Positions 8,349-53,716 of a stretch of 64,000 nucleotides of DNA are shown one piece after another. The notes under the pieces were generated by a model that was given only the letters and a program-made list of their open reading frames with translations, searched no databases and was not told the DNA's origin. A program made the translations under genes and the position numbers. Positions within the stretch are counted from its first letter, which is position 1, and each line of letters starts with the position of its first letter. Source of the DNA: Filosporella fistucella (lineage: Eukaryota; Ascomycota; Leotiomycetes; Helotiales); NCBI GenBank assembly GCA_030077755.1, contig JAQJZZ010000001.1, positions 1,426,001-1,490,000 on the forward strand, given 5' to 3'.

Positions 8349-11300
8349 CTACAATATTACCCATTCTCTTGACTTCTCTTCTTCTTCTTCTGGAGTCGGC
8401 GAGGAGAGATTTTGTGCAACGTTCTCAGTGATGGAGTTGGAGGAGAGGAGGACTTGGGGACAGGTGAGTATCCCGATTGGTTTGACGTTGTAGTTGTCTG
8501 TCCACCAGCCTCCTTCCGCTATTGTTGGAACTTTTGTTAGTTCACCGTGCACATAATAATAACATGATTATCGAAGCACAGAGTCGGAGATTGCTGATGA
8601 AGTGACTGCCACAAGGATATTGGAAATTTGAGGACTTACTTCTCCAGATGTCAGGCCAACATGTATCGGTAATCCCGTCCACGAGATGCAAGTGCCCAAA
8701 GGCATTATATCGGTTTCCATAAGCGGTGATCGATATTTCACGTTTCTTCCCTTTCAATACTCCCAACTCAAGCTGGCGTGGTTGGAATGCGATCCTACCT
8801 AGCTTCTTGCTGGACTTCTTGTCGTGGACTGTAAGGACCGGGCTAGAGAAATCGGGTACCCATAATGTTGATTTTGTTTTGGGCTTGGACTCAGGGAGCA
8901 TTTCGGCTGCTGGTATCGTGCAATTGTAGATTATGTTGCCAACATAAAATGGGAGACCTTGATTTGTGATCCATCCCCAAGTCAATTTACTTGTGTCTAA
9001 CTCCGAAATACTGACGTCGTTTCCTTGGACGGTGACTCCAAAATCCCCTAGAATGTAAATACGTTCGATGTTTGTTAGGATACCAAATGGGAATGATAGA
9101 ATAATCGTGTTTTGACCTGCTTGAATTGTGTTGGGTGGGATAGGGACAGTACGAATTGCCTCATCCACCCACCATGACTTTTCACCAGGCTTGTTCGAAG
9201 GTGTGGATATGATAGGAGTCGCATTTATGGTTATGGCCATTGTTTCTGGATCTTCCACCGCAATATGTGTTTCAGAAGTAATGGTAAACGAGGATTTGAA
9301 GTCAAATTTCAGAACCACGTGAGTACGTGGTGCTCGCTTTGAGTTCGGTACTGCCCATGGTTGTGTCCATGCCATCCCCTTTCGTGGGATCTGTACACGT
9401 TCTCGAATCAGGTTGTCTATTCGGAGGACCTCTGTTCGTGGTGACCACTTTGTGTCAGGAAGTTGGTACGAGGCATAGTCTAGAAGGAGAACGTTGGGCT
9501 CAGAAAGGGTGACGCTGTCAAGTGTGACATGGACAGAGGTTGTCGAAGGTTCCTGTACTACGGCGAGAAGATCATCGCTGGTAGAAGGCGATGGAATTAA
9601 GTGAAGTAGCAAGCTGCCACATCCTGAGAATCTGTAAGGGAAAGAAGTCCATCCGTCACTATGATGGGACTGAAGGTCATCCTCGTCCCCTGTAAATGTA
9701 TCTAGCTTCTTAATTTGCCAAACTCCTTTCAGGCTTACTATCGTGTCGACTGGATAATTGCGATCTCTATTGCAAATGAATACGAATCGCTCATCGCCAT
9801 CCTGACGCATTTGATATAGTAACTTGTCTGCAAGACCTTGTCCAACAGTGATACGAATTTCTCTGTAAGGATTTAGAGCATTGAGAACGCTTTGTTGGCC
9901 CCAGTAGATACTCTTACTCGGCTCGATTGAGGGGTTCGCTGATGGAATCTGTGCATCCACAAATTCAGGAGCACTGCCCGCTATGATGACCTTTCCACCA
10001 GCCTTTGCAAAATCGCGCAGAATCTTCAGGGTTGTCGATCTGATCGTTCGAAGGTTGGGAACGACGACCACATCGTATTCGCATGCTCCAACTTTCAATT
10101 TGTCTCCTTTCTGTTTCCCGACTTGATTCGGCAAAAGACTTTCCGCGATGAAATCAAAATCGATAAGTCCATGAAGCAACCAATGTGTTAGATCTTTAAA
10201 AGCTTGATCACGACGGCCCAGTTCGTCCCCTGTTCCGTTTGGTCCGAAAGCAAGCCAGTAGCTCTCGATTGGATGTATAACACCTACTTTCGAAACGGCA
10301 TGACCGCGTGTCATTGCCACTCCAACACGAGCGAAATGGTCTTCAACATGGCCGTATTCTTTGTACCATGGACTTTGATAACCGATACAAGCAGGATAGT
10401 CTCTCTTCCCCTCCCCACGCATACTCACCCAAGTAAGATGGTGCACTCGAAATGTGATACCTAGCGCTGCTTGCCAATCACCACATCCTTTGTGCCCCTC
10501 AAACGTGAATGTCCAGTGAGTGACACCGTAAAGCTCACTCATGGTGCCCTTCGAACCATTCTGGCGTGATACACTAGAAGCCTGTTTGGCAGTATTGTAT
10601 TCAGTCCAATCAACGAGCAAATCCATTCCTGGCATCTGTTGATTTCTGTAACAGCGCATTGCTTCACCGAGTGCGGTACTTTGGGAATAGAGGGTAGGTT
10701 CTTCCATCATGTGCCCATCAAGCATCAGATTGTTCTTCTTGCACCATCCGGCCAATTGATCCATGAACGCAGACACAAACCTCTCACATACATGGTCGTG
10801 ATAATGGTACCTTATCAAGCTTGGATCACCATTCGGAAGATTCCAGACGAGCTGTGGTAAACCTTCCACGAGGTCTGAGCCGTACTCTTTCTTGAATGTC
10901 TTTGCTAGGTCCGTTGTCCACGGTAAGAAAATATCGTCTGAAGCTCTCGGATTAGAGAGTTGCGTTTTGGTTGCGAATTGAGGTTCATCCGTGAAGATGC
11001 AAGGAACAGCAGTTCCAAACTTGTCTCCGATTTTGGCTTTATATATTTCATGAGTTGTCTCAATGAACTTTGCAATTGCATCATGGCTGAGAGTGTCGAC
11101 ATAGGTCTGATCATTGAACCATGGCGAGCCAGGATTCGTCTCAACATATGCGTACCATACATTCCTTCCAGATTCGCCCTTTTGCAAAAGCCTGCTAGAC
11201 TTAAGGCACCCGTTTTCATCCACTACCAATGTCAGTTAGTCTTGATTTGGCTCATTGAGCCTTTCTCAGGCACGGAAACCACTTACACAGGATATCATAA

Positions 11301-21140: not shown

Positions 21141-23238
21141 TTATGTAATTTGGACAAGACAGCCTTCAAAGTACATCCTTACTGATTCTGTCTCCTCTAA
21201 TCCCTTTGCGATACCAACATATCCATCTGGCCGTACAACAACCAACGCTCCTTTCTCTTCACTAACTCCATAAACCCCATACGTATCTGTGCCATCAAGC
21301 AAGCCATAAAAAGACATCTCCGCGAAATCCTTGACACAAGCCGGGATATCCTCCCACTCGAAGCTGCGTTGGCGAAACGGATGCAAAACAATCAGTTCTA
21401 TAGTATCGCTAGGAAACATAGGTATGATCTTGCTGCATATATTCCCCAAAGCTATTGCTGAGACACCCTGACCTTGAATAAGGTCTTTAGTAGAGAAGAC
21501 GACAATTCGATAGCGGCCTGTAGAAGGAAGGTCATCCTGGAGATGCCTGATATTTGCGTCGGCATATCGTCTCAGAATACTGTCAAGGATTCTTCTTCCA
21601 GGCTTAATAACGCCCTGTAGATAGTCATTGCCTGTGATAGGACTTACGTTTTCGGAGGTCTTTGTTGTCATGGGCTCAACAAGTAGGCCCTGCGAATATT
21701 CAACGCCACAGCCACTCGTGAAACCGCTTCCATCACTGAAGACTCTGAGGAATTCAGAATGAGTAAGGCTTTCAACTGAATTTTCAGAGCCAATTTGACC
21801 AGAGAACATAGAGGAGAATTTTGTGTCGAATTCTATTAGTTGTTTCGCAACTGCAAGGCGCTCGTATTCAAAAGTGCTCAAGACAGTTCCAGATTGATTG
21901 TTTGTCGGAGATGGACTTAGCCCATGAAGTGTGTGTGCCAACTTCCAAGCAAGATTGTACGAATCCATCATGGACACGTTCATCCCTTGACCAGCCTTGG
22001 GACTGTGTGTATGGCATGCTATAGACTATTTAGTAAGGGAAATGTTTGGTTGGATTTGAGCTTTACCGTCCCCAACAATAAAAACTCTCTCCAGGCCACT
22101 ATCATCAGCCATAGAAAATTTTGATGTCATTCGTTGTCCAATTTGATACGCAGCCCACCAATCTACTGTTGTGCTTGGCTTTATCGAGATAGTATAAGGT
22201 GCGAAAACACGCTGTGCCTGGGTCATAATGTAGTCCAGTGTGATTGCTGCTCGTCTCTTTCCTGCTTTGATCTTGGAGAGAGGGTCGTCTGGAAAAGACT
22301 GGTCCTCCGGGACCTCCTCTTTGACTTGAACATATAGACGAGTGAGATATTGTCTGGATCCAATGCGCTCTCTCGGTATGATCATGACTGAGCCCACATC
22401 TGAGTGTATGGCACATCGCTTTCTTATATCGGGAAAATTTGTCTCGGCAACAAAATCAGCCACTCCCCATATATGGTCTGTTGTGTCGCCTTTCAGTTCC
22501 TGTCCCATTGATCGTCGAACTTGCGAATGTGCTCCATCAGCGCCTACCAAATATTTTGCTCTCACCGTTCTGCGTTGTGTGCTTCCGTCATCGCTGACTT
22601 TGTCAACCTCGATGCTGAGTGGATACTCGGAATCCTGAGCCGTGTCAATGCGAAAGCTGACAAACTTAGTAGAACGTTGAATTCTGTCTTTAGAATAGAG
22701 CCGAAGATTCTCCTCCATGATCCTCTCAATTCGGCCTTGGTGAATTGTCACTTCGTGTTTAAATCGTGCTGCTACAACGACGTCCGGCACAAAGGAAGTG
22801 CGCTCGATGCCACCTTGTGGTGTCCCTTTGGGATTCCAAAAAGCAACTTCAGACATGTGGCATCCATGATCCAGGATTTCATGCGATATATCAAGACTTT
22901 TGAGAACCTCCAGGGTACGGGGCTGTAAACCATCGGCTTGTCCAGCCTTGAGAGTGCCAGGTTTGGCGTCGAAGCAAATAATGGAGTCGCCCAGGCCATA
23001 TCGTGCCAATAATAGAGTAAGCATGAGACCAGCGGGACCAGCCTGAAGCTACCATGTCAGCATAATCCAAAGTATTTCGTGGTTTGATACTACTAACGCC
23101 TGCAACCACGACCTCATATCGCTCTGTTCCATCTTGGCTCTTCACAGGACGCGGGGTTAATCGAGGCAGTGGGCGCTCTAGAGAAGGTTGGATACGAAAA
23201 TCGCGGGAGATATCAGCGGTCTCTTGAAAGACGGGCAT
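21141..23238 (-). CDS. Phenol 2-monooxygenase-type FAD monooxygenase (aromatic hydroxylase)
   Basis: Three exons on the minus strand (23238-23098, 23042-22067, 22018-21141; introns 55 and 48 nt) give 664 residues, the usual size of fungal phenol hydroxylases. FAD/NAD(P)H motifs are all present: GAGPAG at 47-52, KYLVGADGAHS near 214, and GDACHTHSPKAGQGMN near 371, the last formed exactly across the second intron. The C-terminal thioredoxin-like dimerisation domain is indicated by YRIVVFSTKDL and LVVVRPDGYVG. These enzymes add an ortho hydroxyl to phenols using NADPH and O2. In this cluster, hydroquinone or a related phenol to hydroxyquinol is the most economical reaction (inference). It is transcribed away from the ring-cleavage dioxygenase gene; the two share a 646-bp promoter. 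No signal peptide, so probably cytosolic. Confidence 0.88.
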
Positions 23239-23884
23239 CTTGCTGGCTTGCTTCTCGGTTTTTGGGGAGGAAGCTGTCAGAGTAGCAAAATGATTGCAGG
23301 AAATCTAAATAGAAGGGAGAAGATGCAAGAACAAGGAAAGAGCCGCAACAAGAAAATGGACAATTCAATCACATCTTTTCACTCGCACACCAGAGTTCAT
23401 ACCAGCACTCGGGAGTCGGGACCCTGTTGCTAGTCACTGGATAGCATTAACACTTGTTCAAGATCGGGAACATTCACATAACTGCACCCCAGCCCAAATA
23501 ACCGCCTTGACTTTGCCCGTGGCAGGTGCACACATCGCGAATCTGGTGATCATGGAGTTCCCGGCTTGGCCGGGTAGAGAACTCGGAGGCACAAGTTCTT
23601 CGGGTAGCGAACGGATCGAGTACATGATAACACGCACGTGACTCGGAATACCAACAATCGACCATAATCTAAGTTCTTCCTGTTTTGCGTCGCTCTCTGC
23701 CGGATGCGAAACTAGAGTTCCTATCATCTGGGTGCCGGTGCGCTGTTCTGATCGTTAAATTCGATATGGGGGTTCGGCCGTGCGGTGAACTTCATTCAAG
23801 TACATACCTACCTTAGTCTCTCTAATCTTGCTCGCCCCAGAGTGACAGCTTAAATCGCCGACCATCAACAACATACCGGTCAAA
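23239..23884. promoter_or_regulatory. Divergent promoter between hydroxylase and ring-cleavage dioxygenase
   Basis: The 646 bp separate the start codons of two head-to-head genes that should act in consecutive steps. A TCGGAAT element lies at 23643-23649; further CGG triplets occur nearby (for example about 23565 and 23770). Such CGG-type sites are what Zn2Cys6 regulators bind, and one is encoded in the cluster. No experimental or statistical support is available from the sequence alone. Confidence 0.5.
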
Positions 23885-25023
23885 ATGGCTTCATCGGCAA
23901 TTTTACAGCCAGCAAGCAAGGACTTAACGATCGAGAATATCACACAAAACGTCCATCTCATCAATTCACAATGCGGGGATCGGAGGTTGAAATACCTCCT
24001 CGAGAGACTTGTGCTTCATATGCATGACTTTGTGAGGGAGACGAGATTAAGCACTGATGAATGGATGACGGCTATAGAATTTCTAACAGCTGTAGGACAG
24101 ATATCTACAGCAGTCCGTCAGGTTCGTTCTCTTAAGTCAAGTCTAGAAGACTGAAAATACCCTAACATCCTTAAAGCAACCTCATCTAATTTTCATCAGG
24201 AATTCATTCTCTTGAGTGATGTTCTGGGTGTTTCGCTGCTCGTGGATTCTGTAGACCACCCAAAACCAAATGGCGCTACAGAAGGGACAGTTCTTGGACC
24301 TTTTCACACTCACGAAGCTTTGCCAGTCGCCAATGGGGATGCTATTGCATCTGATCCAGATGGTCAGCCATGTCTCGTTTTGTGCAATGTATGCGATACA
24401 GATGGCAAACCGATCGCCGGTGCCAAGATAGATGTATGGGAGACGGACTCCAAAGGGTTCTATGATGTACAGTATGCAGATCACAAGGGACCTGATGGTC
24501 GGGCCGTTATGACAAGCGATGATAACGGCTTTTTCTGGTTTAAAGCAATAGTCCCTGTTCCTTATCCTATTCCACATGATGGTCCGGTAGGAAAGTTGCT
24601 GAAACGACTTCATCGCCATCCTTATCGCCCAAGTCATATGCATTTCATGTTTGCGAAAGATGGCTATGATCCACTTATAACGTGAGCCTTGGCATACAAT
24701 CCTCTATTCATTGTATAAAAAGACATACATTAACCGTCATTTTGAATAGTGCCCTGTACCTTCGCAACGACCCTTACGAGAATTCTGATGCCGTTTTTGG
24801 GGTAAAGACTTCATTGGTAGTTGATCTTGGAGAGCTCAAAGATGAAGCACTAGCCAAGAAGTACGATGTCAAAGTTGGGTGTTCGACTATTGAATACAAA
24901 TTTGTATTGGTGTCAGAAGCTGCTGCGCTTGAGTTACGGCTGCGCAAGGCGTCGGATGCCATGAATGCACAGGGCAGAAAAGTCGTTTTTCTAGGTGGAC
25001 TGCCGGTACCTGACGTTGATTAA
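23885..25023 (+). CDS. Intradiol ring-cleavage dioxygenase (hydroxyquinol or catechol 1,2-dioxygenase)
   Basis: Three exons (23885-24121, 24200-24681, 24750-25023; introns 78 and 68 nt) give 330 residues. The N-terminal helical domain is followed by the catalytic beta-sandwich. The non-haem Fe(III) ligands can be placed at Tyr167 (SKGFYDVQY), Tyr201 (VPYPIPHDGPVG), His225 and His227 (YRPSHMHF). GTVLGPFHTHEA is the conserved loop before them. The enzyme opens an aromatic 1,2-diol between the hydroxyls. Because a maleylacetate reductase gene lies 3.6 kb away, hydroxyquinol to maleylacetate is more likely than catechol to muconate (inference). It shares a promoter with the flavin hydroxylase. 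There is no signal peptide, so it should be cytosolic. Confidence 0.9.
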
Positions 25024-25917
25024 AACGCGCATATTACTTGAAGTAGAGGACAACCTAAAAATATTTTTTCAATATTATTGTCTTCTTGATCAAGAACGAA
25101 AAGCACGTGAACTTTAACTCTGTTAAGCTAGATATCGTATTGGGATCAAAAGGTAAAGGTGGATTGTTCTGTGCGAGTCTATATATGAATAAAGTAAGTG
25201 GGAGGGCTCTTACTTGATTAATAAGATTGTTTGTTAATTACGAATAGGCCAGAATTCAGCTTTTAATTGACCTACCAGATTACTAGTACACCTTATTCCT
25301 ATTCTATATTCCAACATATCTAGCTTAATGACCTAATAATAAGTTACACGATATGATTCTGCGCATAAGGTTATGCTGTCTTGTTTTGAACTATTCATAA
25401 TTCTGCCAACTATAATCTGCCTCAGATTTGATAGATAAGATTCAAGATTTAAATGCCGGTGGCATCCGCCAGACCTTACTCCCGAACTCTGAATGTTCCA
25501 AAAGTGCAGTACCCGGAAATTCGGAATGCGTCCTGATCCGGAGGACACTTCGGTACTATTGTATGTTTGTATGCTCTTAAAGCTTTCCTGACTTTAAATC
25601 GTGCAAGTTCCGAAAGCCATTTGACAAGAGTCTGACGCAATAGCTATTGGCCTCCCAGTCGTCCGAGCATAGCGCAAACGCGTCGTAGAGATATGTGCGG
25701 ATAGTGGAGATTGTTACAGCCGCTCACCCCAGGGCGAGAAGTTCTGCAAAGACGTTGTCGGCAATCTCGAAATATTTTCAACCCATTGCATCATTTTTAT
25801 TATTATTTACAATTCTTATTCCCAATCTATCCCCTTTCATCCATTACTCTTCCTCCAGTCCCCAGAATTTTCTTCTTACATTCAACTCAAGCTGAAGTTA
25901 TTCATCATTGCCCTAAG
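25024..25917 (+). promoter_or_regulatory. Spacer and promoter of the Baeyer-Villiger monooxygenase gene
   Basis: The first part is AT-rich 3' flank of the dioxygenase. Closer to the monooxygenase are CGGAAAT (25514-25520), TCGGAAT (25521-25527) and ATCCGGAG, a cluster of CGG-containing sites. No gene is recognised; a short minus ORF (25333-25548) is not convincing. Confidence 0.4.
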
Positions 25918-28122
25918 ATGTACATGCCAGGTGGTCCTGTCAAATCATTCGACATGAAGGGCGATTTCAAGCATGTCCAAGTGATTGAACCTGCCTTAGA
26001 GCAAGAGACCGCCAAACAAAATTCTGAGGACAACAAAGCCCATTTACAGAACGGGTATCCAGTTAGAGATGACCGCCAAGAGACGACTCAAACGGAAATT
26101 AAAGATGCCCCGGTGGAGAATTTTAGACCCATGAGGGTTATCGTCATCGGTGCCGGATTTTCTGGAATATACTGCGGTGTCAGAATTCCTGAAAGACTGC
26201 GTAACGTTGACCTCTGCATTTATGACAAGAACTCTGGAGTTGGAGGGACTTGGTTCGAGAATAGGTACGTAGTAATCAAGTAAGATATGGTATTGAGGAA
26301 GTCATGTTAATCACGGCAGTACTCAGATATCCTGGATGTGCTTGTGACATTCCATGTAAGCGGCGGGCAATAAACGCAATTACGGATACTTACCCGTGTA
26401 AGTGCTAATAGATGATTCTAGCACACTCTTACCAATATACTTTCGCACCGAATCCCAATTGGACCAAATTCTACGCTGAATCGAGCGAAATCCGTGAATA
26501 TCTCGAAGACGTCGTGAAAAAGTATTCTGCAGATAGGTTTATCAAGTTATCGCATCGGGTGAAGGATGTTGAGTGGCAGGAAGGACTGTCAAAATGGTGA
26601 GTATTGCTTTATGATATGAAGGAACGTCTGCAATAGTACTTCTAGCTAACATATCAGGTTTGTGACTGTAGAGAACCTCGTAACCGGAGAAATATTCCTA
26701 GACAAGGCAGATGTTGTGATAAGTGCGCGTGGAACACTTAACGATATATCCTGGCCTGAGATTCCTGGATTGAACGATATGCAGATCCCCGTTATGCACT
26801 CAGCAGCCTGGAATCAAGAGTTTGTGCTGTCCATTCCATGATATAATGACCAAGCTGATGAAGTATCTGAAGGCAGGATTTCCAAGGAAAGCGCATTGGC
26901 ATAATAGGGGGTGGCAGCAGCGCCATTCAGATTATTCCGGCATTGCAGAAAGTCAAAGATACACGCCTCACATGCTTCATAAGAAGTAAAACTTGGATTT
27001 CGAGACCTTTTGGTGACCATGTTATGCAGCAGCTTGGTTTAGACAGTATTGAATGTAAGTCATTGGAGCCTTTTTATAATACCATGCACTGTACTAATAT
27101 ACACAGTCACACCAGAGCAAAGAGTTCGTTTCGCAACGGACCCAGACTACTACCTTAACTTTCGAACAATCATCGAACGAGACGCCAATTCAGTACATTC
27201 TTTAACGTTGAAGGACTCAGAAATGCAACGTTTCGCACGAGATGATTTCACTAATCTCATGCGTGAACGTCTTGCTAAGAAACCGGAGATCTTTGAGCAC
27301 CTTCTACCTGACTTTGCCGTTGGTTGTAGGCGGCTGACACCTGGCCCTGGATATCTCGAGGCACTTGTCGAAGATAACGTGGACCTCGTCAAAACCCAAA
27401 TCGCAAAAGCCCACGCCACTGGTCTCGAACTGGAAGATGGGGGTAAATTAGACTTTGATGTTCTAGTTTGCGCGACCGGGTTTCGAACATCAGCTCCCCC
27501 ACCATTTCGTGTTGCAGGTATCAATGGTCAGACGATGGCAGAAAAATTTGATCCTTTCCCCAAAACATATCTTTCACTTGCCACTGATGGATTTCCAAAC
27601 TATTTTATGATGCTTGGCCCAAATGCGGCAATTGGGACTGGCCCACTTACGACAATGATGGAGATGGGCGGAGACTACATTATTAAGTGTATTCGAAAAC
27701 TTCAAAAAGAGAATATCGCCAAGATGGAAGTCCAGAAACGCCGAGTCAAAGATTTTTCAGCGATAGTAGACAATTACTTCAAGCAGACTGTTTATCTGGA
27801 CAAGTGTAGTAGTTGGTATCGCAACGCTGGTGGGAGAGGTGATCGCATCTCTGGTCTCTGGCCAGGAAGCGCACTACATGCCATGGAGACATTTCGGTCT
27901 CCTCGTTGGGAAGATTTCGATTATGTCTATATGGGCGAGGAATATGGCAGCGGCAAAGAAGTCAACAGATTAAATTGGCTTGGGAACGGATGGTCGATTG
28001 CGCAAACGGATGGTGAAATTGGGGAGTTGGCGCACTTCTTGCAACCTGGGCTCATTGATATTCCTGCGGAGTCCTTTCCGGAAGAGACAAAGATCTATAA
28101 GCAGCGTCCGTTTTCCCACTGA
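25918..28122 (+). CDS. Baeyer-Villiger-type flavin monooxygenase
   Basis: Six exons (25918-26264, 26327-26355, 26422-26596, 26658-26819, 26873-27054, 27107-28122) give 636 residues. The 29-nt second exon encodes only part of YPGCACDIPSHSYQY. A first Rossmann motif is GAGFSG (78-83), then GVGGTWFENRYPG; the second is GKRIGIIGGGSSA (243-255). VCATGFRT is the usual C-terminal ATG motif. The N-terminal extension of about 70 residues resembles that of aryl-ketone Baeyer-Villiger enzymes. The family fingerprint FxGxxxHxxxW is altered to MQIPVMHSAAW: His231 and Trp235 are kept, the Phe and Gly are not. The intron at 26820-26872 could alternatively use a GT six bases downstream with an acceptor at 26876; the protein would then differ by a few residues. 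Expected reaction: ketone to ester with NADPH and O2. Confidence 0.85.
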
Positions 28123-28666
28123 GCATTTTTCATAATCTGAGTATGCAATATATATCTGTATCTATTGTTCTTATTATCTCGTTCATCAAATATCAGTCCA
28201 AATAAAAGTTCAAATTAGGGATATCACTGGAGATGCTTGTTACCACATTAGCATTTGCTCCAAGTAAAGCGAACTAGTCCAGAGATTCACACCAGTTTGA
28301 GTTTTCATGAATTCTCACTGCCGAGCACTCCGTTGAACCGGTGCAACTGTTACTGAAACTCATAGTACTGGGTACAAAATGTATACTGGATTTTCGGAAT
28401 TTATTTCGTGCCTGAGATACATAAGCTTCCGAATTATTGATAGTCGCTGGTACTTTGTTGAAGCGATGCCGTCTTTCGGATCTGGTGCAGGTTGGGGTCT
28501 TCCACTTCCACCTGCATCTCAGGGGTCACATCCGAAGTCTCAGCCATTTGGTTGCGTGGTCCGCGATCACTTCAGTCGTCGTGCTTGGCGATCACACTCC
28601 TCATCTCACCTCGCCAGCTCCAACCCCAAAACGTAGGTGCTCTTTTTCGAATATCCGTATTTCATA
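28123..28666 (+). promoter_or_regulatory. Spacer and promoter of the maleylacetate reductase gene
   Basis: It contains TCGGAAT at 28394-28400 and CTTCCGAA (CGGAAG on the other strand) at 28426-28433. Short ORFs overlapping the following gene (28379-28818) are out of frame with it and show no motifs. Confidence 0.4.
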
Positions 28667-29801
28667 ATGGAGATCATGAGAAATTTCGTTTACAATGCTT
28701 CGCCCGTACGAGTGATCTTTGGCAGCGGCACGATCAATGCGCTGACCGGAGAAATTTCGCGAGAAAACCTTGTGGCACCGTTGTTAATCTCGACTCCAAG
28801 GCAGACGGATTTAGTTGAGAAGGTGAAAACCAATCTCGGCGGGATTGTGGTGGGCGTTTTCATGGACGCTGCAATGCATACGCCCACAAATATTACTCAG
28901 AAAGCCGTAGAGTATGCTCAGTCAATCAAGGCAGACTCTGTTATATCGATTGGCGGCGGGAGTACGGTGGGGCTAGGCAAAGCAATTAGTATACGTACTG
29001 GGCTACCACATATCTGCATTCCAACAACATATTCAGGGTCCGAGATGACTCCGATTCTTGGTGAGACTGCAGATGGGCAAAAAACGACCAGAAGTGATCC
29101 TAAAATTCTACCGACAACTGTGATATATGACGTGGACTTAACTTTGACACTTTCACCTAAGCTGAGCGCTACGAGCGGAGTCAACGCAATCGCACATTCT
29201 GGTATGTCTTTGTAGGATCAAGCATGATTTGAAAGAGGCTGATATAGACCCAGTCGAGGCGCTCTATGCTCAAAACACCAATCCAATTATTACTCTTCTC
29301 GCTTTGGAAGGAGTAAAAGCGCTTGCAGAATCACTCCCTATCATTGTCGTCTCCCCAGGTGATATTGTTGCGAGAACAAAAGCTCAATATGGAGCATGGC
29401 TATGCGGATTGTGCTTGGGATCGGTGGGAATGGCTCTCCACCATAAACTATGCCATACTATTGGTGGCAGCTTCAACATGCCTCATGCGGAGACGCATAC
29501 CATTCTCCTTCCTCATTCATTGGGATATAATGCACCCAAGATTCCCGAGGTCATGAAAGAACTTGCAAAGGTGCTACCTGGGAGCGAGGGGGATGCGATT
29601 CATGGCCTCAACCTTCTCCTGGCCAAGTTGAATGTGACGAAAGACTTGGAGAGCCTCGGCTTCCACGAGGATGACATCGATAAGGCCGCTGTAATTGCGG
29701 TCAAGAACCCATATTACAATCCACGAGTGGTTGAGATCGGACCCATCAAAGAGCTGATAAGGAGAGCATATGCCGGTGAGGAGGCTCGAGTAGACCTGTA
29801 G
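28667..29801 (+). CDS. Maleylacetate reductase (iron-type alcohol dehydrogenase family)
   Basis: Two exons (28667-29201, 29254-29801; 52-nt intron) give 360 residues, the normal length for maleylacetate reductases. Visible motifs are VRVIFGSGT near the N-terminus, ISIGGGSTVGLGKAI (nucleotide binding), CIPTTYSGSEMTPI, SGVNAIAHSVEALYA (formed across the splice), and HHKLCHTIGGSFNMPHAETH. These distinguish it from ordinary iron alcohol dehydrogenases. It reduces maleylacetate to 3-oxoadipate with NAD(P)H, the last specific step of the hydroxyquinol branch before the 3-oxoadipate pathway. Its presence beside an intradiol dioxygenase and an aromatic hydroxylase is strong contextual support. Start chosen at ATG 28667; a second in-frame ATG at 28676 (MRNFVYN) is equally possible. 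Confidence 0.9.
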
Positions 29802-30310
29802 ATAGACATATAGAAGCAATATGTGACTTATTTGTTATTAGATTCAATGATCTGTGCAAGATGTATACATAGTATAGACGTACTGTACACGGACAATATT
29901 CAAGACGCGGTGCCTAGGAAAATGGAAGTGGTGGGAGCTGTAAATATGTATCAAGGTAGATGTCACATGCTCTAGCTCACCGATGTGGTGACTAAGCAGC
30001 ACTCCCCGAACGCAGTTTCCACTATTTGCCTCTAGCGCAGAAGCTAGCTTACCGTACCTTAGGTACCCCGCACTCGGCCGGATTTAGGATTAGCGTAGCT
30101 AGACCCCCTCGATATATAACGTATATACTAAACCCTTTCGTTCCCGTCCTTCTAGATGGATGTTGACTAAGGTACGACGCTGGTACAAAGTACAAGTACA
30201 TGCTAGTGTGGTGCTTGCTGCCTTATAATTGATCATTTCTTCTTCATAGACACCTCAGGCTTTCTAGCTTAACTAGCCTCCAGCTGGTAAGTACCTTCGA
30301 GGGCAACAGT
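29802..30310 (+). promoter_or_regulatory. Promoter region of the cluster regulator gene
   Basis: No ORF of interest. It contains a CGGCCGG stretch (about 30076-30082), GTACCTTAGGTACC palindromic sequence around 30053-30066 and AT-rich sequence near the gene. No further feature is recognised. Confidence 0.35.
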
Positions 30311-32570
30311 ATGCCACGCAATAAGGTGCATCCGCTCAACCGGAAGCGGACTGCACAAGCTTGCAGCAGCTGCAAAAGACGAAAGGAGAAATGTGATGGC
30401 GAGAAGCCATGCAAGAATTGTAAGACTCAGAAGAGAGGCCACTTGTGCCAGTATACAACGAGTCAAAAATCCACAGGTCCGCGCTCGACTCGTCCGCTTT
30501 TGCAAGCTGCGAATTCGCCCCTAGAATCCTCATCGAGAGATATTTTGGCTCTTCTGGACAATGGAATTGATGAATACTCGCAATCTGAGGCCAGTAGATC
30601 AGGCTCTATCGCAAGCACAACGTCAGCACCAGTCCCAAAATTCTCCAGAATGCTTCTTGGCAGCAACGGGGGGTTCAGTAAGTGCTTTCGCTACCTCCAG
30701 AATGACAATTCTGATACGTTACACAGTATATATTGGCGATTCTGCTTCATTGTCCTTCCTACAAACCATCAGACGAGCAGTCATTGAGATTTCTGGACCC
30801 TGCGATTTCACTACCGATTCACTGCGCCATCAGATGCTCGAGACCACCTCAACTACGCGTTTTGTTGATCGAGTAGAGCCTCAACCAAACCTCTTGACAG
30901 CTCTGCTACTAGTGGATAAATACATGGTAGCGGTCAGCGGCATTCTCGACCTCTTCGATAGAGCTTGGCTTGCAGATCAGCTTCCAGGATGGATTGCAGA
31001 CTCCAACCGCAGACAACTGCCTAATTCGCCCGTCATTTATCTCGTGTTTGCCATCGGAGCGTTGAGTGATTCGCAGAATAATGAAGATGAGGAACTGGCT
31101 GAACAGTACTTTGGATACGGTCGACAGCTGTCAACTGCGAACCTCATGGATGAGCCAAGCCTGCTAACGGTTCAGGCTTTCTTGCTTATCAGCTACTATA
31201 TGTTAGCCTCGTGTAGAAGGAACGGAGCATTTATCAATTTAGGGGTAGCGGTAAGAGCAGCCTACGCGCTCGGAATCCATAGGCATGAGGCGAATGTGGC
31301 TTTTGTAAAACATGAGGGACTCAATCGGGAACGGGCATGGAAATCGTTGCGAGTATGCGATCTATTCCTTAGCGCCTCAATGGGGCGTCCTCTTGCAACC
31401 TCAGAAGAGACCTGTAATATTCCTTGGGCCTTACTCGAATCCACAGATGGCCGCGAAAACTCTTCCGTGAAGGCTCAGGTGGCGTCGGCGATTTTCCGAA
31501 TATGCCATGTATTTGAGCGTGTTCTCACGGAAGTTTACTCGAAAAAAGCGCTTTCGATAGAGCTAGCTGCAAGTATATCACAGCAGCACAGAGACTGGAC
31601 CAAAGAGTTGCCTACAATGCTGAAGGTCGATGGTCTTTCCGATAACGTTCAACCAAACAAGGCTGCCATATGCCAGACGCTGGGGTCCAGTATTGTCATC
31701 ATGGCATACTACTACTCAATCATCCTCTTAACCAGACCATTCCTCACTTTCCTAGTGTGCACCCGCTCGGAATTTGCAGGCCCCACTAACGCTATCACGG
31801 AGCCAATGTCAAATATTGGCACCTATTCGGATGCTTGCGTCGACTCAGCCATTAAAGGGGTAAATATTGCAGAAAAGGTGGTTTTCGATGAGTCAATGCC
31901 AAAAAGGCAACCACTTATCGTCAACAGTGTATTCATATCTACGCTATGCCTAGGTATGGCTTCTTTTAGTGACTACGATCGTCGTGGGTGGCCACTCATT
32001 CCCACAATGGACTCAGCCATTGCAATTATGGAGCGCCTAGGTCAATTTGACCCTTTATCAGCACGATACGCACAGATCTGCAGATATTTGCGACAAGCTG
32101 CATATCAATACATGCGAAGGAGGGATGTACAAATTTCAGAGTCAAGCAGCCAGGCTGTGCAGAAGATATTTGGTGACGTGCAAGCTGGCGTGGTCGAGAC
32201 AGCACAACCAACAGACCCACCCACTTTTCGAAGTCCTGCGCCGAGAAGGAGCCAATCACTTCAATTGGAACCTTTAATCCCAAATGCTTACGACCTTAAT
32301 TCCGCCCTCCACGAATCCATGAACAGCTCGGCTGGTTCGTTCGCTACGCCGATAGAAAACGACGCAGAGTTTCACTTTCAAGATACATTTCACATGGATA
32401 ATATTCTCTCATTGAGTGGTGGGGATTCTATTTCTGATGCAAATAGCATCGCATTTGGAGAGCATGTACCCTTGTTCTCTTTACGAAATCATTTTGCGAT
32501 GGGTGCTTATGATGTTTCAAATCAACATCTGGATTTACCCGACTGGACTGTTAATATGACCGTGGATTGA
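30311..32570 (+). CDS. Zn2Cys6 transcription factor, probable regulator of the catabolic cluster
   Basis: Two exons (30311-30677, 30727-32570; 49-nt intron) give 736 residues. The binuclear zinc cluster has cysteines at 18, 21, 28, 34, 37 and 46, with the basic stretch CKRRKEKC. The join restores NGGFIYIGDSASLSFLQTIR, a segment typical of fungal regulators just before the fungal-specific transcription factor domain. That domain is seen in LISYYMLASCRRNGAFINLG, AVRAAYALGIHRHEA and NRERAWKSLRVCDLFLSASMGRP. The gene sits in the middle of the aromatic catabolic genes, which makes it the likely pathway-specific regulator (inference). The inducer is unknown. Nuclear location is expected. Confidence 0.88.
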
Positions 32571-32970
32571 AATGATACCCAAAACACAAGTCTTGGCATG
32601 ATTACAATCATAGCATGAATACCATAATTACGTGGAACATATAGGTGTATTTGCGGTACAATCTTGACGAAAATACGGCTTCTCTTGGATGCTTGAATAT
32701 TGGAATGGCAATAATAGAATATAGCCGAGAACAGCCCAACAAACCGTAGCCATCGAGCTTGGTGTCTCAACTCGCCGCTGCTAGAAAGATTTCAGAATAT
32801 CGATGTTATTAGCTAGGGGCATAGTCTAGATCAGGTCTTCCCAACCACCCCTGATAGAATGGGAGGGAGAATACTGCAGGGCATTCATGGAGAGGACAGA
32901 GGCGACATGAAAGGGGAAATTGCGGCCAGATAGGTTGAAGAGTAGATATACAATAATATGCCAAACGTTT
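32571..32970. other. Convergent intergenic spacer
   Basis: About 400 bp between the 3' ends of the regulator and the VAO-like gene. It should contain both polyadenylation regions. Short ORFs here are unconvincing. Confidence 0.5.
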
Positions 32971-35005
<2,035 letters not shown>

Positions 35006-35719
35006 ATTGAGATTGAATTGCTAGCCAGTGATGGGACTTGCGACGTTGTTTGGTACTGCGTCTGGCGTTTTGGGTTTGATTGATGGTCTCAAAAAGTGTG
35101 AATATCTTGTGTTGACACAATGTGGCTGGACGTTCCCAATTGCTGTATATAGCGACAGCAGTGGTTTCTGGGGCTTTGGCTTTGGCTTTGGCTTTAAATC
35201 CTATTATGCAGAATGAAAAGAGCGGAGTAAGAGAGCCAAAAGTACTGGAAGGGGAGAAGGAAATAATGGCCCCGCAAACGTGTAGACAACACCGGAAGGT
35301 GTACCGGAAGACGTACGGAAGTCTCCCTCGCATATCTCAAAGGCGATCACGAGACAAGATTTGTAGTCTGGGGTAAAGGAACCATGGGGAAAGTGAAAGT
35401 GAGCCGGGGTGAAAGTGGATTACTAGCAGAACATACTCAACGAAACCTTGCAATTGATCTAGCCCCAAATTCGCGTAGCAAGCCGGAAGGCAAGTTGGTG
35501 CTCGTTGTCACACGCTGGATGTCTATCCGGAGAGGTGGTTTCCTGTCAGGCTCGCCCGTAAAAGTAAACCGAAGGCAATGGCCGTGTATCTTTTTTCAAT
35601 TGTTCTTGAATCCAGCCAGCCCATCGTTCCATTTTAATATACTCGTACGGCAGAAAAATCAGAAACGGTGTAATTCACATCCATTGCATTGTATCGCAGA
35701 AGCAAGAAAGTACCATCCA
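35006..35719. promoter_or_regulatory. Divergent promoter between VAO homologue and alcohol dehydrogenase, with repeated CGGAAG
   Basis: The 714 bp between the two start codons contain three CGGAAG elements at 35293-35298, 35305-35310 and 35316-35321, spaced 12 and 11 bp, so they lie on about the same face of the helix. The first two belong to a 12-bp near-repeat (accggaag plus four bases). A fourth CGGAAG is at 35484-35489. An open frame runs in from 35384 in phase with the dehydrogenase, but it adds 112 residues without family character and is probably chance. Confidence 0.55.
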
Positions 35720-36841
35720 ATGGCTAGACAATTACAATCCAAAGCAGTGGTGGTAATTCCCACTCCCGGATCACCACTAGAAATACGCACAAGAGAAGTT
35801 CCCCTACCAGGACCTGGATGCATCAACATTGCGGTTTTAAGGGCAGGAGTCTGCGGGACGGACATTCACATATGGAAAGGAGATGAGCCTCTCTCCGAGG
35901 CTATGGTTCTTGGGCATGAAGGACTTGGTCGTGTCATTGAACTGGGAGAGGGTGTCACGACAGATCACGCCGGTGCTTCTCTACATGTTGGTGACGTTGT
36001 CTACTGGAATCCTATCCGGCCTTGCAATGCTTGCTACAGTTGTACCGTCGTCCAAGACCTCACCGCTTGTGAAAACGGAACATTTTGGTCGCCGGCAAAG
36101 GATGATATTGTTTGGGCAAGCTATTCAGAAATTGCCACGTTGATGCCGAATAATTCGTTCTACCTCGTTGACTCGACGGTGCCCCTTGATGCATATATTG
36201 CTCTCGGGTGTGCTCTGCCAACGATGCTCCAAGCAGTCGAGAATCTGGGAGGGATTAAGTCCGGATCTAGCGTAATTGTTCAGGGAGCTGGTCCCGTGGG
36301 ATTAGCAGCTATAATGCTGTGCAAGATTGCTGGGGCAGAGCATATCGTCTGTATCGAGAGTAATGCTGCTCGAATTTCACGAGCTAAGACATTTGGAGCC
36401 GGACTGTTGGTAAATTTCCACGAGGATGGGTTGAAGAGCAAGGAGGCAAGAAAGGCACACATTGCTCAAGCAGTGGGCAGAGTCGGCGTTGATCTGGTGA
36501 TCGAGTGTAGCGGTAACGCAGCTGCGTTTGAGGAAGGCATGGGCCTGTTGGGGAGAAATGGACGGTATCTGCTTGTAGGAACCTGGGCGGGCACAAACAC
36601 AGTGCCCATGTCTCCGTTTCACATAGTCCAGAATGCTTTGAAGATAATTGGGTCAACTTACGCTTCGCCGTCAAGCTACTATCATGCGGCGAAAATCGTT
36701 AAAGCAAATTGGAAGAAGTTCCCGCTTGTAGAGTGCGTTACTCACAGGTATGAATTGGCAGATGCCCAGGAAGCGCTGGAAGCCGTTGCTGCAGGCCAGG
36801 TCGTCAAAGCAGTTGTGTATCCCCAGGGAATAGAAAATTAA
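35720..36841 (+). CDS. Zinc-dependent medium-chain alcohol dehydrogenase
   Basis: Intronless, 373 residues from ATG 35720 (MARQLQSKAVVV). Catalytic zinc region: Cys45 in AGVCGTDIHIWKGDE, then GHEGLGRV with His66 and Glu67. The structural zinc loop reads CNACYSCTVVQDLTAC. The NAD(P) Rossmann motif is GAGPVGLAA. The frame stays open upstream to 35384, but the family N-terminus starts here. Given the VAO homologue on the other side of the shared promoter, oxidation of a 1-(4-hydroxyphenyl)alkanol to the matching aryl ketone is an attractive role (inference). General alcohol or polyol oxidation cannot be excluded. Cytosolic. Confidence 0.88.
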   Translation: MARQLQSKAVVVIPTPGSPLEIRTREVPLPGPGCINIAVLRAGVCGTDIHIWKGDEPLSEAMVLGHEGLGRVIELGEGVTTDHAGASLHVGDVVYWNPIRPCNACYSCTVVQDLTACENGTFWSPAKDDIVWASYSEIATLMPNNSFYLVDSTVPLDAYIALGCALPTMLQAVENLGGIKSGSSVIVQGAGPVGLAAIMLCKIAGAEHIVCIESNAARISRAKTFGAGLLVNFHEDGLKSKEARKAHIAQAVGRVGVDLVIECSGNAAAFEEGMGLLGRNGRYLLVGTWAGTNTVPMSPFHIVQNALKIIGSTYASPSSYYHAAKIVKANWKKFPLVECVTHRYELADAQEALEAVAAGQVVKAVVYPQGIEN

Positions 36842-37890: not shown

Positions 37891-39324
37891 ATGTGTTTTC
37901 TGGCGAGTATTATTCTCGTTTGGGGCATCATCACAGCACATGCATTAGCCAGTCCACGTGGGATTTTTCCACGGCAGCTCAACCTAAATGCCACCATCTC
38001 GCTCCCTCCACCCACGCAAGATCCATGGTATCACCCACCTCAGAATTGGACCCTTACAACTCCAGGCACAGTACTGAAAACACGGAATCATGCCTACGGC
38101 CAGATCAACATAGGTCACTGCAATGATACATTTCAAGTGCTGTATACAACCGCAGACAGCAACAACAACCTCTCCTGGGCAGTGACGACAATCTTCATCC
38201 CTACTTCTCATACTCTTTGTAATTCCACCAACCTAGCAGCGTGCTCCCACGCTATAGTCTCTTACCAAGTTCCATACGACAGTGCTGATCCAGACGCTAC
38301 ACCCAGCTATCTCTTACAATGGGGCGAGCCATATGGGGAGATGAATGATCTGCTCGCTCGCGGATACTTTGTCGCTGTGCCAGATTATGAAGGGCCACTT
38401 GGCTCTTATTGCGCAGGAGTGCAAGCAGGACATGCGACGATAGATGGTGTACGTGCTGTACTTCAAGTTGCACCAGATCTCCGAATGCAGACGGAAAAGA
38501 TAAAAGTTGCATTGTGGGGATACAGTGGTGGTGCACAAGCTACTGAATTTGCTGCTGAATTGGCTGGGATGTATGCCCCTGAGCTAAAGGTGGCGGGCGC
38601 GGTGGTGGGAGGACCATCGCCGAATTTGACAACCGTAGGGGAGAAGATGAATGGGAAAGATACTGCTGGATTACTCATAGCAGGAATCGTAGGAATTACT
38701 TCTCAACATCTTGCTGCGAGGGAATTCCTGCTGAGTCGCTTGCACAAAGAAGGTCCTTATAACGCCACCGCGTTCATGTCTGCCACTACGATGAGTGGAG
38801 TACAGGTATTGCTTGCATTCATGGGTCAGGATGTGTATAAGTATTTCCTAAACGGGAGCGCCGACTTGTACGCTCCTATCATGCAAGAGATGACGAATAG
38901 AGACGGAGTAATGGGGTACCATGGCACGCCAAATATGCCATTCTTCCTCTACAAGGCTGTCAATGATGAAATGAGTCCCGCGAACGAAAGCGATATCCTT
39001 GTTGATGGATACTGCAAAGCAGGAGCCAATATTTTGTATCATCGGAATACGATTGGAGGGCATAACCAAGAGTTATGGGATGGGAGAGATCGAGCATTAA
39101 GATTCTTGGGTACTGTGCTTGATGGTACATCCGTTTTAGAGGTGCCAACCAGTGGATGCTTGACGGTGAATGTTACTGTTGCGAGCAACGTTACTCTGTC
39201 AGCTAATGGAACAATCTTGGTCGAGCCTCTAGATGTGAGGGTTTTGGAGAATGGGACGATAGTGCTTGCACATGACGTCGTTTCAAAAGCGGCCAGGAAT
39301 AAGCTTGGGGTGTTGTTGAGATGA
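37891..39324 (+). CDS. Secretory lipase/esterase (LIP family)
   Basis: Intronless, 477 residues. The signal peptide is MCFLASIILVWGIITAHALA. The alpha/beta-hydrolase nucleophile elbow is WGYSGGAQA with Ser212. It is preceded by a family-typical run: YQVPYDSADPDATPSYLLQ, GYFVAVPDYEGPLGSYCAG and GVRAVLQ. Acid and histidine candidates are in NDEMSPANESD and NTIGGHNQELW. Several Asn-X-Ser/Thr sites and paired cysteines fit a secreted glycoprotein. These enzymes hydrolyse triacylglycerols and other esters outside the cell. The gene lies next to the aromatic cluster, but its promoter lacks the motif shared there, so it may be an unrelated neighbour or the source of esterase activity for the pathway. 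Confidence 0.9.
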   Translation: MCFLASIILVWGIITAHALASPRGIFPRQLNLNATISLPPPTQDPWYHPPQNWTLTTPGTVLKTRNHAYGQINIGHCNDTFQVLYTTADSNNNLSWAVTTIFIPTSHTLCNSTNLAACSHAIVSYQVPYDSADPDATPSYLLQWGEPYGEMNDLLARGYFVAVPDYEGPLGSYCAGVQAGHATIDGVRAVLQVAPDLRMQTEKIKVALWGYSGGAQATEFAAELAGMYAPELKVAGAVVGGPSPNLTTVGEKMNGKDTAGLLIAGIVGITSQHLAAREFLLSRLHKEGPYNATAFMSATTMSGVQVLLAFMGQDVYKYFLNGSADLYAPIMQEMTNRDGVMGYHGTPNMPFFLYKAVNDEMSPANESDILVDGYCKAGANILYHRNTIGGHNQELWDGRDRALRFLGTVLDGTSVLEVPTSGCLTVNVTVASNVTLSANGTILVEPLDVRVLENGTIVLAHDVVSKAARNKLGVLLR

Positions 39325-39990: not shown

Positions 39991-41457
39991 ATGTCGCCAT
40001 CCTCAAACCCCCCCATTCCAAGCTACCGTATTGCTTCTATACCAGCAGATGGCATCGGACCAGAGGTTATTCAAGCTGGTATTGCCGTCTTGAAGCAGCT
40101 TTCAACCACCCTCGGCACTTTCCAGCTCAAATTTGAGGAGTTCGATTGGGGGTCTGATCGCTATAAGAAGACTGGGAAATATTTACCCGATGACGCATTA
40201 GTAACACTAAAGAAATTTGATGCTATCCTCTTCGGAGCTGTTGGTGCACCTGGTATGTTGATTTCTGTCGAATCCCCTTGTTTTAACGCATCTTAAACGA
40301 ACAATTCTGAAAATGAGTAGATGTACCTGATCACATTTCACTATGGGGTCTCAGATTAGCAATCTGCCAGCCATTACAACAGTACGCCAATGTACGCCCA
40401 ACAAAAGTTTTCCGTGGTACCTCGTCACCGCTACGTAATTGTAAGGCAGGGGATCTCGATTGGGTCATTGTTCGCGAGAATTCAGAAGGCGAATATGTGA
40501 GTGTCAGAATCTTGCAGAATTGTTCCCACTTGCAATGCTTTGTCGGAGTTGTTACACCAGAACAAGTCTACTTGAGAAGTTCTTGTCTGTCCTCAAACAT
40601 TGATTTTATGAATGACTGACTTCGAGTTATTGATTTGTAGGCTGGCCACGGCGGACGGTCTCATGTTAACAAGCCTTGGGAGACAGCTACCGAAGTCTCC
40701 ATCTTTACACGTCACGGAGTCGAGAGGATTATGAGATTTGCATTTGAACTGGCTCAAAAGAGGGAAAAGAAGCATTTGATTGTTGTAACAAAGAGTAATG
40801 CACAGCGAAACGGAATGGTACTCTGGGATCAGGTTGCTAAGGAGGTGGAGAGAGATTTTCCAAATGTTAGAGTGGAGAAGATGTTGGTTGATGCTATGAC
40901 TACGAGAATGGTGCTGAAACCAGAGAGTATTGACACTGTTGTGGCGACTAACTTGGTGAGTCTCCTAGCACTCGTTCTCTGTGACTTGATGTTGCATCTC
41001 GGTTGAAATAGAGGACTGCACTGACAAATGCAGCACGCCGATATTCTGTCTGATCTCGCTGCAGCGCTTGCTGGCTCAATTGGTATCGCACCAACCAGTA
41101 ACTTAGATCCGACTAGAGAGAACCCATCTATGTTCGAGCCAATTCATGGTTCTGCTTTTGATATCACTGGAATGGGAATTGGTATCCTTCTTTCCCCTTA
41201 GTCTGTCTTGTATACCTTTCTAACGTGAGGCAGCTAACCCCGTGGCTACATTCTGGACAGTAGTCGAAATGCTGAAATGGCTAGGTGAGGAAAAAGCAGG
41301 TGAGCAGTTATTAGATATAGTGGAAACTGTATGTGAGAATGGTATAATGACTAAGGATCTTGGTGGGAGTGCTACTACGGCTGAGGTTACCAATGCGGTA
41401 TGCATTGAGATTGGGAAGAGACTAGGGAGGAAGAATGTCTCAAGTGGACAGAGCTAA
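39991..41457 (+). CDS. Tartrate dehydrogenase/decarboxylase-like enzyme (isopropylmalate dehydrogenase family)
   Basis: Five exons (39991-40252, 40321-40496, 40641-40955, 41034-41181, 41234-41457; introns 68, 144, 78 and 52 nt) give 374 residues, the family size. Motifs: [31 protein letters not shown] (made by the first splice), [14 protein letters not shown] (second splice), [14 protein letters not shown], the metal-binding DAMTTRMVL and [13 protein letters not shown], and the NAD-binding [14 protein letters not shown] and IANPVATFW. The [13 protein letters not shown] and GHGGR signatures point to tartrate dehydrogenase/decarboxylase rather than leucine biosynthesis. It oxidises tartrate or D-malate with NAD. 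Cytosolic. Confidence 0.85.
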
Positions 41458-53051: not shown

Positions 53052-53716
53052 ATTGGCGAAGAAGATGTGAGTGTGTTCACAATTGAAGACACATCAGTAA
53101 TGGCGAAGACTGTCAACAGCGGCTGTCATTCAAGGCGCACACCTGTGCACCGATTACTACGATTTTCGAGATATCGAGCCTCTGATCTTATTATTGATAC
53201 CGGACCTTGATTGGTTGTTGCGGGTCAAAGCGATTGAAGGTAGGAAGTACCTTAACAGGTGTTGTGTTCGATTGTAATGTCCATTTGAGTAGGGTAAGGT
53301 AACTAGAGAGCTTCAAGATTTTGGTTATGCTGACTAAGAAATTCATAGGTACAGACAGTATGGGTAAATGTAATAAAACCGGGAGCCCGCAGACCGGGTT
53401 TCCGGCTATCCAATTTGGTGCGACTCGATCAGCTGATGAATACAGAACATCATGACCAGTTTCGAGTATAAGGTATAGCATTCCAAGTTTTCTAGGTTAC
53501 GGCACTTTCGTGTCAAGCTCTCTGATCTGACAATTTCTAACACAAATTTATAAAATTTCGCAACCCCTTCGTGCCACTGGCAACGCAGCACCAATACTTC
53601 AAAGATTTGTCATTTCAACGAACTATCTTGAATACCATCTGAGTCTCAGATCTCTTGATTCTTGGGTCTCTTGATTCTTGGGTCTCTTGATTCTTGGGTC
53701 TCTAATCTCCTTCACA
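53052..53716. promoter_or_regulatory. Divergent promoter of regulator and AIF-like reductase, with 16-bp tandem repeat
   Basis: 665 bp between head-to-head start codons. Three perfect tandem copies of ctcttgattcttgggt occupy 53652-53699 and end 17 bp before the reductase ATG, so they are probably in its 5' UTR or core promoter. No gene is recognised. Confidence 0.5.
53652..53699. repeat. 16-bp tandem repeat, three perfect copies
   Basis: Three identical copies of ctcttgattcttgggt immediately upstream of the AIF-like reductase start codon. Perfect identity suggests recent expansion. Confidence 0.92.

Follow-up and report, generated by a model that had tools for sequence, protein, structure and literature searches.

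4-Alkylphenols are lignin-derived and plant phenolics, and one mould that metabolises 4-ethylphenol is Aspergillus fumigatus, in a strain that is reportedly ATCC 28282. This metabolism (Jones, Trudgill and Hopper, 1994, as reported in the review PMC3727088) leads from 4-hydroxyphenyl acetate through hydroquinone and 1,2,4-trihydroxybenzene to maleylacetate, the same chemistry that we propose here for a cluster of seven genes (A to G) in Filosporella fistucella (Ascomycota; Helotiales), located on a 64-kb stretch of contig JAQJZZ010000001.1 (positions 1,426,001 to 1,490,000; hereafter the window, whose numbering is used throughout). Parts of this chemistry or gene content are shared by other described systems: the 4-hydroxyacetophenone pathway of Pseudomonas fluorescens ACB, in which the ketone is converted to 4-hydroxyphenyl acetate and then to hydroquinone (PMC3727088); the degradative fungal clusters of aromatic catabolism built around a vanillyl alcohol oxidase (VAO) core gene (Gluck-Thaler and Slot, 2018, via PMC10735191); the hydroxyquinol cluster of Scedosporium apiospermum, in which a maleylacetate reductase gene adjoins a hydroxyquinol dioxygenase gene (PMC8283699); and the 4-hydroxybenzoate pathway of white-rot fungi, whose hydroquinone 2-hydroxylase, TvMNX3, is the best solved match of our gene A (PMC12915361).

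A seven-gene locus and its proposed route

The window is part of a genome of 45.8 Mb in 19 contigs. The original prediction of seven adjacent genes of recognisable enzyme types at 21141-36841 is borne out by the gene models, all of which are intact and open once spliced, with GT-AG introns only, and by Pfam, which assigns each of the seven at least one family over its gathering score. NCBIfam, run on proteins B, C, D and G, gave matches below cut-offs only. All open reading frames (ORFs) of at least 120 amino acids (aa), counted stop to stop, within the span are exons of genes A to G or antisense to them. In the list below, FAD is flavin adenine dinucleotide and BVMO is Baeyer-Villiger monooxygenase.

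21141..23238, minus strand: gene A, phenol-hydroxylase-type FAD monooxygenase, 664 aa (exons 23238-23098, 23042-22067, 22018-21141; Pfam FAD_binding_3, PF01494, and Phe_hydrox_dim, PF07976)
23239..23884: divergent A/B intergenic region, 646 bp, putative shared promoter, from the gene models
23885..25023, plus strand: gene B, intradiol dioxygenase of hydroxyquinol type, 330 aa (exons 23885-24121, 24200-24681, 24750-25023; Pfam Dioxygenase_N, PF04444, and Dioxygenase_C, PF00775)
25918..28122, plus strand: gene C, type I BVMO, 636 aa (six exons, 25918-26264, 26327-26355, 26422-26596, 26658-26823, 26877-27054, 27107-28122; Pfam NAD_binding_8/FMO-like)
28667..29801, plus strand: gene D, maleylacetate reductase, 360 aa (exons 28667-29201, 29254-29801; Pfam Fe-ADH and ADH_Fe_C)
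30311..32570, plus strand: gene E, Zn2Cys6 transcription factor, 736 aa (exons 30311-30677, 30727-32570; Pfam Zn_clus, PF00172, and Fungal_trans, PF04082)
32971..35005, minus strand: gene F, VAO, 587 aa (exons 35005-34478, 34415-34343, 34293-34058, 34002-33904, 33851-33666, 33612-32971; Pfam FAD_binding_4 and FAD-oxidase_C)
35006..35719: divergent F/G intergenic region, 714 bp, putative shared promoter, from the gene models
35720..36841, plus strand: gene G, zinc alcohol dehydrogenase, 373 aa, intronless (gene model; Pfam ADH_N, PF08240, and ADH_zinc_N, PF00107)
37891..39324, plus strand: LIP-family secretory lipase adjoining the cluster (PF03583, 168 bits)

In the route that we propose, the VAO (gene F) would hydroxylate a 4-alkylphenol, for example 4-ethylphenol, at the benzylic carbon, the alcohol dehydrogenase (gene G) would oxidise the resulting 1-(4-hydroxyphenyl)alkanol to a 4-hydroxyaryl ketone, and the BVMO (gene C) would act on this ketone by inserting oxygen next to the ring, giving a 4-hydroxyphenyl ester. 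An esterase encoded elsewhere would release hydroquinone, which gene A would convert into hydroxyquinol, gene B would open to maleylacetate and gene D would reduce to 3-oxoadipate, the whole cluster being putatively regulated by gene E. The order VAO, alcohol dehydrogenase, BVMO is chemically coherent; we infer all of the substrates, the esterase, the regulation and the sequence in which the upper steps follow one another. The linear route of the original prediction thus stands in its enzyme assignments and its ring-cleavage half, whereas the substrates that it gave to the BVMO and the hydroxylase are putative. The cluster is real and probably functional as a catabolic cluster; the sequence data show which families its enzymes belong to, that catalytic residues are in place and that some of the genes are co-located in other fungi. 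That it funnels some phenolic through hydroxyquinol to 3-oxoadipate appears highly probable; that its genes form a regulated unit by which the fungus degrades 4-alkylphenols, 4-ethylphenol among them, via hydroquinone is the fuller reading towards which we lean.

Proposed steps from hydroquinone to 3-oxoadipate

Subfamily matches give good support to the ring-cleavage half (hydroxyquinol to maleylacetate to 3-oxoadipate). The iron ligands of gene B (Tyr167, Tyr201, His225 and His227) are exactly those originally predicted, and its five best matches in the PDB, at 305 to 221 bits, include 8r2w and 1tmx, named hydroxyquinol 1,2-dioxygenase, as opposed to 118 bits for the best catechol dioxygenase; by score it is of the hydroxyquinol type, closer to hydroxyquinol than to catechol enzymes. 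Gene D matches the maleylacetate reductases 3hl0 and 3w5s at 366 and 364 bits, followed by 3jzd (360 bits) and 3iv7 (256 bits), both named iron-containing alcohol dehydrogenase, and by a methanol dehydrogenase (116 bits). It is the sole maleylacetate reductase found in the genome, where one other match (contig C12) is 31-39% identical over parts. Two further hydroxyquinol-type dioxygenases (61-63% and 54% identical to gene B) are found in the genome; around these loci, L034 on contig C10 and L031 on contig C12, no homologue of the other six cluster genes lies within 7.0 and 9.5 kb, respectively.

The best PDB match of gene A is 8R2U at 361 bits, which is hydroquinone 2-hydroxylase TvMNX3 (PMC12915361), followed by phenol hydroxylase (1PN0/1FOH) at 341 bits. 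Since the phenol hydroxylase score is so close behind, it is from the neighbouring genes that hydroquinone rather than phenol is proposed as its substrate, making gene A a putative hydroquinone 2-hydroxylase.

Proposed steps from alkylphenol to aryl ester

Gene F shares 63% identity with P0181, the VAO of Penicillium simplicissimum, and matches Penicillium VAO entries at 854-860 bits. It retains His61, Tyr108, Asp170, Tyr187, His422, Tyr503 and Arg504 (Penicillium VAO numbering), and hence the covalent-FAD histidine (H439 in our protein, for His422), the base (D179, for Asp170) and the phenolate triad (Y117/Y520/R521) by which a VAO is recognised. Where P. simplicissimum VAO has Thr457, a residue that is usual but not essential to membership, gene F has an aspartate (D474). 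Among gene F and its 120 listed homologues (121 sequences), this position is Asp in 15 and Thr in 98; all nine members of the clade of gene F (98/98 support) have Asp457, six Asp457 sequences fall outside this clade, and the state at this position changes at least four times on a tree of 29 rows.

The Asp170Ser/Thr457Glu variant of VAO reportedly hydroxylates 4-ethylphenol with inverted stereochemistry, and PDB chain 1e0y shows changes at these two positions (Ser, Glu) in our VAO alignment. According to PMC10404669, which mentions VAO variants of inverted enantioselectivity, position 457 lies near the benzylic carbon of the substrate and is Glu in VAO clade II, an acid at 457 being hence already known; the Asp457 clade is a new observation here. 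P. simplicissimum VAO is active on 4-ethylphenol (3.8 per s), and the fungal VAOs described so far usually end at the benzylic alcohol (PMC12909556), which is why an alcohol dehydrogenase encoded beside the VAO has a job to do. The nearest solved structure to this dehydrogenase (gene G) is 1vj0 (162 bits), and it has no close copy in the genome, the next best-scoring place being 30% identical. A second VAO (L030, contig C4, ~1487594-1489553), which has Thr457 and is 56-74% identical to gene F, was considered as the mark of a second cluster and rejected, no homologue of the six other genes lying within 17.5 kb.

Gene C contains the first Rossmann motif, [A/G]GxWxxxx[F/Y]P[G/M]xxxD and the conserved arginine of type I BVMOs, which we take to be equivalent to R337 of phenylacetone monooxygenase. 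GxGxxG, the Asp and the Arg are present in all 21 homologues of its clade, and the second Rossmann motif is gapped in up to three of them. The fingerprint FxGxxxHxxxW[P/D] is departed from: gene C reads MQIPVMHSAAWN, with the family's His retained, F and G lost and N replacing P/D. In the clade, H and W are found in 21/21 homologues and F and G are lost in 20/21 (the exception being a metagenome protein, P0016). In these 20, G is replaced by Ile and F by Met, Ile or Leu, whereas the 99 other listed homologues all retain F and G. This F/G-poor clade is likewise a new observation. The best PDB matches of gene C are steroid, cyclohexanone and phenylacetone monooxygenases. Its named relatives among the 120 listed are fungal and 40-73% identical, and its plasmid matches (15 shown of 364 records) are 29-34% identical and are named monooxygenase or oxidoreductase, or are unnamed. 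Bacterial 4-hydroxyacetophenone monooxygenase (HAPMO) has an extra N-terminal domain.

Co-location in other fungi

Proteomes were searched for relatives of the BVMO, the VAO and gene A, keeping the best 120 of thousands for each and one name per 90% cluster; clades were taken from trees, rows were compiled by hand, and a shared contig together with locus tags served as a proxy for synteny. Same-species pairs lying within the clades share a contig in four of five cases, as opposed to 1/47 other pairs (p 0.0001; 1/39 before eight more pairs were added, Fisher p 0.0002), strain identity being not checkable for every pair and the pairs being related by descent. It is because of this difference that chance is unlikely for the cluster, and parts of the gene set appear, from these data, to be kept together in other moulds. 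The four pairs are BVMO and gene A in Talaromyces stipitatus and in Ilyonectria destructans, BVMO and VAO in Penicillium waksmanii, and VAO and gene A in Clonostachys chloroleuca. The last two genes are 11 locus tags apart, in the sole species with a tag distance; in the other species the contigs are 1.5-4.6 Mb long, and a shared contig alone is modest evidence. T. marneffei, the single in-clade miss, is apparently listed from two assemblies, and the lone out-of-clade pair on one contig, in Leptodophora, is 98 tags apart. Co-location on a shared contig, as originally expected, is seen for the three genes followed (VAO, BVMO and gene A), with Microdochium, discussed below, as a case to the contrary.

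Points against and rival explanations

A number of observations weigh against an alkylphenol cluster. No intracellular esterase for the aryl ester was found in the cluster, which makes the original wording of a "complete" route too strong. The neighbouring LIP-family lipase was judged unlikely to be the missing enzyme, as its hydrophobic N-terminus, read by eye, makes it probably extracellular. In five Fusarium relatives of gene A (P0265, P0276, P0284, P0296 and P0337, of 120 listed), the hydroxylase is followed by an alpha/beta hydrolase, either as a fusion or through mis-merging, a hint that the neighbouring gene in Fusarium may encode an esterase or enol-lactonase; as a candidate for our route, this type of hydrolase, which might just as well be an enol-lactonase, has one weak relative in the genome (33%, E 4e-5). 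Gene A resembles phenol hydroxylase almost as much as TvMNX3. P0040 of Exophiala jeanselmei, 57% identical to gene C, is probably one of the BVMOs of strain KUFI-6N, which we take to be a cycloalkanone oxidiser. Microdochium trichocladiopsis has a BVMO of the clade, and its listed VAO and gene-A relatives are on other contigs. None of 21 bacterial VAO-type loci, several of them short, has a homologue of the BVMO, maleylacetate reductase or gene A (E 1e-8); six have a zinc alcohol dehydrogenase (26-29%) and two a distant intradiol dioxygenase (26-28%). Finally, 45 spaced CGG/CCG patterns compared between the five promoter regions and 300 shuffles gave no convincing enrichment as a shared promoter motif (best pattern, uncorrected p 0.013 by hits and 0.007 by regions), and no 7-, 8- or 9-mer, required in five, four and three of the five regions, was shared.

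What else could the seven genes do? They might form a mixed locus, in which a hydroquinone/hydroxyquinol pathway (A, B, D and E) lies beside an independent VAO, alcohol dehydrogenase and BVMO acting on unrelated substrates such as a cyclic ketone or a phenolic ether. We regard this as rather unlikely. The solved relatives of gene C among steroid and cyclohexanone monooxygenases speak for it, as does the fact that the BVMO clade is also represented in Botrytis and Microdochium, where the listed VAOs (P0145, P0189) carry Thr457, but two of VAO, BVMO and gene A are joined on one contig in each of four other species, and the BVMO and VAO trees both place the F. fistucella protein by Talaromyces and P. 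waksmanii (100/99 and 91/91). Also unlikely is a locus for p-cresol or 4-hydroxybenzyl alcohol, where VAO and alcohol dehydrogenase would yield 4-hydroxybenzaldehyde, which the BVMO would turn into an aryl formate and thence hydroquinone, with the same lower half. HAPMO attacks 4-hydroxybenzaldehyde, and formate esters hydrolyse readily, which would account for the missing esterase. 4-Hydroxybenzyl alcohols are moreover well-established VAO substrates (PMC12909556). Against this reading, fungi have a simpler route from the aldehyde to 4-hydroxybenzoate, for which a BVMO is unneeded.

The two remaining rivals are very improbable. A bisphenol-like or benzylphenol substrate could be oxidised by the VAO to a benzophenone and split by the BVMO to give hydroquinone, as proposed for bacterial degradation of bisphenol F, for which PMC12507022 gives this order together with some VAO activity on bisphenol F; by the same account VAO is very poor on it (0.2 vs 508 per mM per s for BpfA), and the other product, 4-hydroxybenzoate, has no assigned gene in the cluster. 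A phenol-degradation locus, in which gene A would turn phenol into catechol, can point to the 341 bits between gene A and phenol hydroxylase and to the name phenol monooxygenase carried by many gene-A relatives among the matches listed, yet gene B is by score no catechol dioxygenase, its partner D is a maleylacetate reductase, and no muconate cycloisomerase gene is seen in the ORF list of the span.

Evolutionary history

The 360 listed proteins were also compared with nine further loci of the genome that match VAO, BVMO or the hydroxylase. The VAO on C4 and two BVMOs, on C6 and C3, have their closest matches in fungi such as Leptodophora, Acephala, Cadophora, Drepanopeziza, Mollisia, Lachnellula and Venustampulla, and these paralogues are read, from such matches, as helotialean in affinity; the remaining six have distant matches only and are uninformative. 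On the BVMO tree, gene C falls instead beside T. stipitatus and P. waksmanii (100/99), and its grouping with Botrytis, a group chosen after the first tree, is rejected (p 0.0002). The simplest interpretation is a transfer of gene C between fungal classes, for which gene duplication and loss may be an alternative. Gene F groups, less firmly, with Talaromyces and P. waksmanii (91/91), and its nearest relative by path and identity is an Amorphotheca VAO (79%). P0004, a Talaromyces proteolyticus BVMO, sits within a 12-row fork (100/100) whose other rows bear Sordariomycete names, possibly another transfer.

A bolder idea, which we put forward tentatively and consider somewhat doubtful, is that of a horizontally exchanged alkylphenol-mineralising cluster composed of two co-inherited atypical clades, VAOs with Asp170 and Asp457 and BVMOs that are F/G-less. 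If true, an additional acidic residue close to the benzylic carbon would shift the stereochemistry of the VAO reaction or over-oxidation to the ketone, and motif searches would miss BVMOs that function with neither F nor G in the fingerprint. Both clades, the VAOs with Asp457 and the BVMOs with the depleted fingerprint, are clear targets for enzyme assays.

Other genes in the window

Outside the cluster, an isocitrate/isopropylmalate dehydrogenase family gene (39992-41006) adjoins the secretory lipase gene, and a large ORF on the minus strand (8542-11235) weakly matches the alpha-L-rhamnosidase family GH106 (31.7 bits against a cut-off of 29). In the segment 52032-56874, a pyridine-nucleotide-disulphide oxidoreductase gene (53675-54997) has probable Zn2Cys6 regulators on both sides (52032-52952, by Pfam; 55192-56874, by eye).

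Comparison with known systems

The original prediction knew of no described fungal cluster with all these steps, and in the literature searched (titles and abstract starts, a survey of VAO clusters being known via a citing paper) we found no fungal cluster joining VAO, BVMO and hydroxyquinol genes; the hydroquinone route for 4-ethylphenol, on the other hand, was published for A. fumigatus in 1994. In FAMeDB, a curated database from 2026 that covers fungal aromatic metabolism, the main text contains no word beginning with Baeyer, acetophenone or ethylphenol. The 4-hydroxyacetophenone pathway of P. fluorescens ACB is not known to include a VAO. It also differs in that hydroquinone itself is ring-cleaved, by hydroquinone dioxygenase (PMC3727088). 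The VAO-type fungal clusters differ in that no BVMO or hydroxyquinol genes are mentioned for them in the account of PMC10735191, and that of S. apiospermum in having a CoA-transferase and a P450, with no VAO, BVMO or hydroxylase reported alongside in the corresponding account (PMC8283699). In the white-rot pathway, a decarboxylating 4-hydroxybenzoate 1-hydroxylase acts upstream (PMC12915361), whereas none is assigned in our cluster. A BVMO gene in the setting of fungal aromatic catabolism is not without precedent, one being present in the 3-hydroxyanthranilate cluster of Aspergillus terreus, a different pathway (PMC7842363).

The chemistry of the proposed route is not new, its part from hydroquinone to maleylacetate having been reported for A. 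fumigatus in that year. No genes are named for that route in the account of PMC3727088. None of the named representatives among the listed homologues of BVMO, VAO and gene A (120 for each) is from A. fumigatus, whose route genes may be unrelated to those of our cluster. The natural role of fungal VAOs is still given as proposed (PMC12909556), and the F. fistucella locus gives these enzymes a concrete pathway setting, together with candidate genes for a fungal route that the accounts cited here describe as biochemistry.

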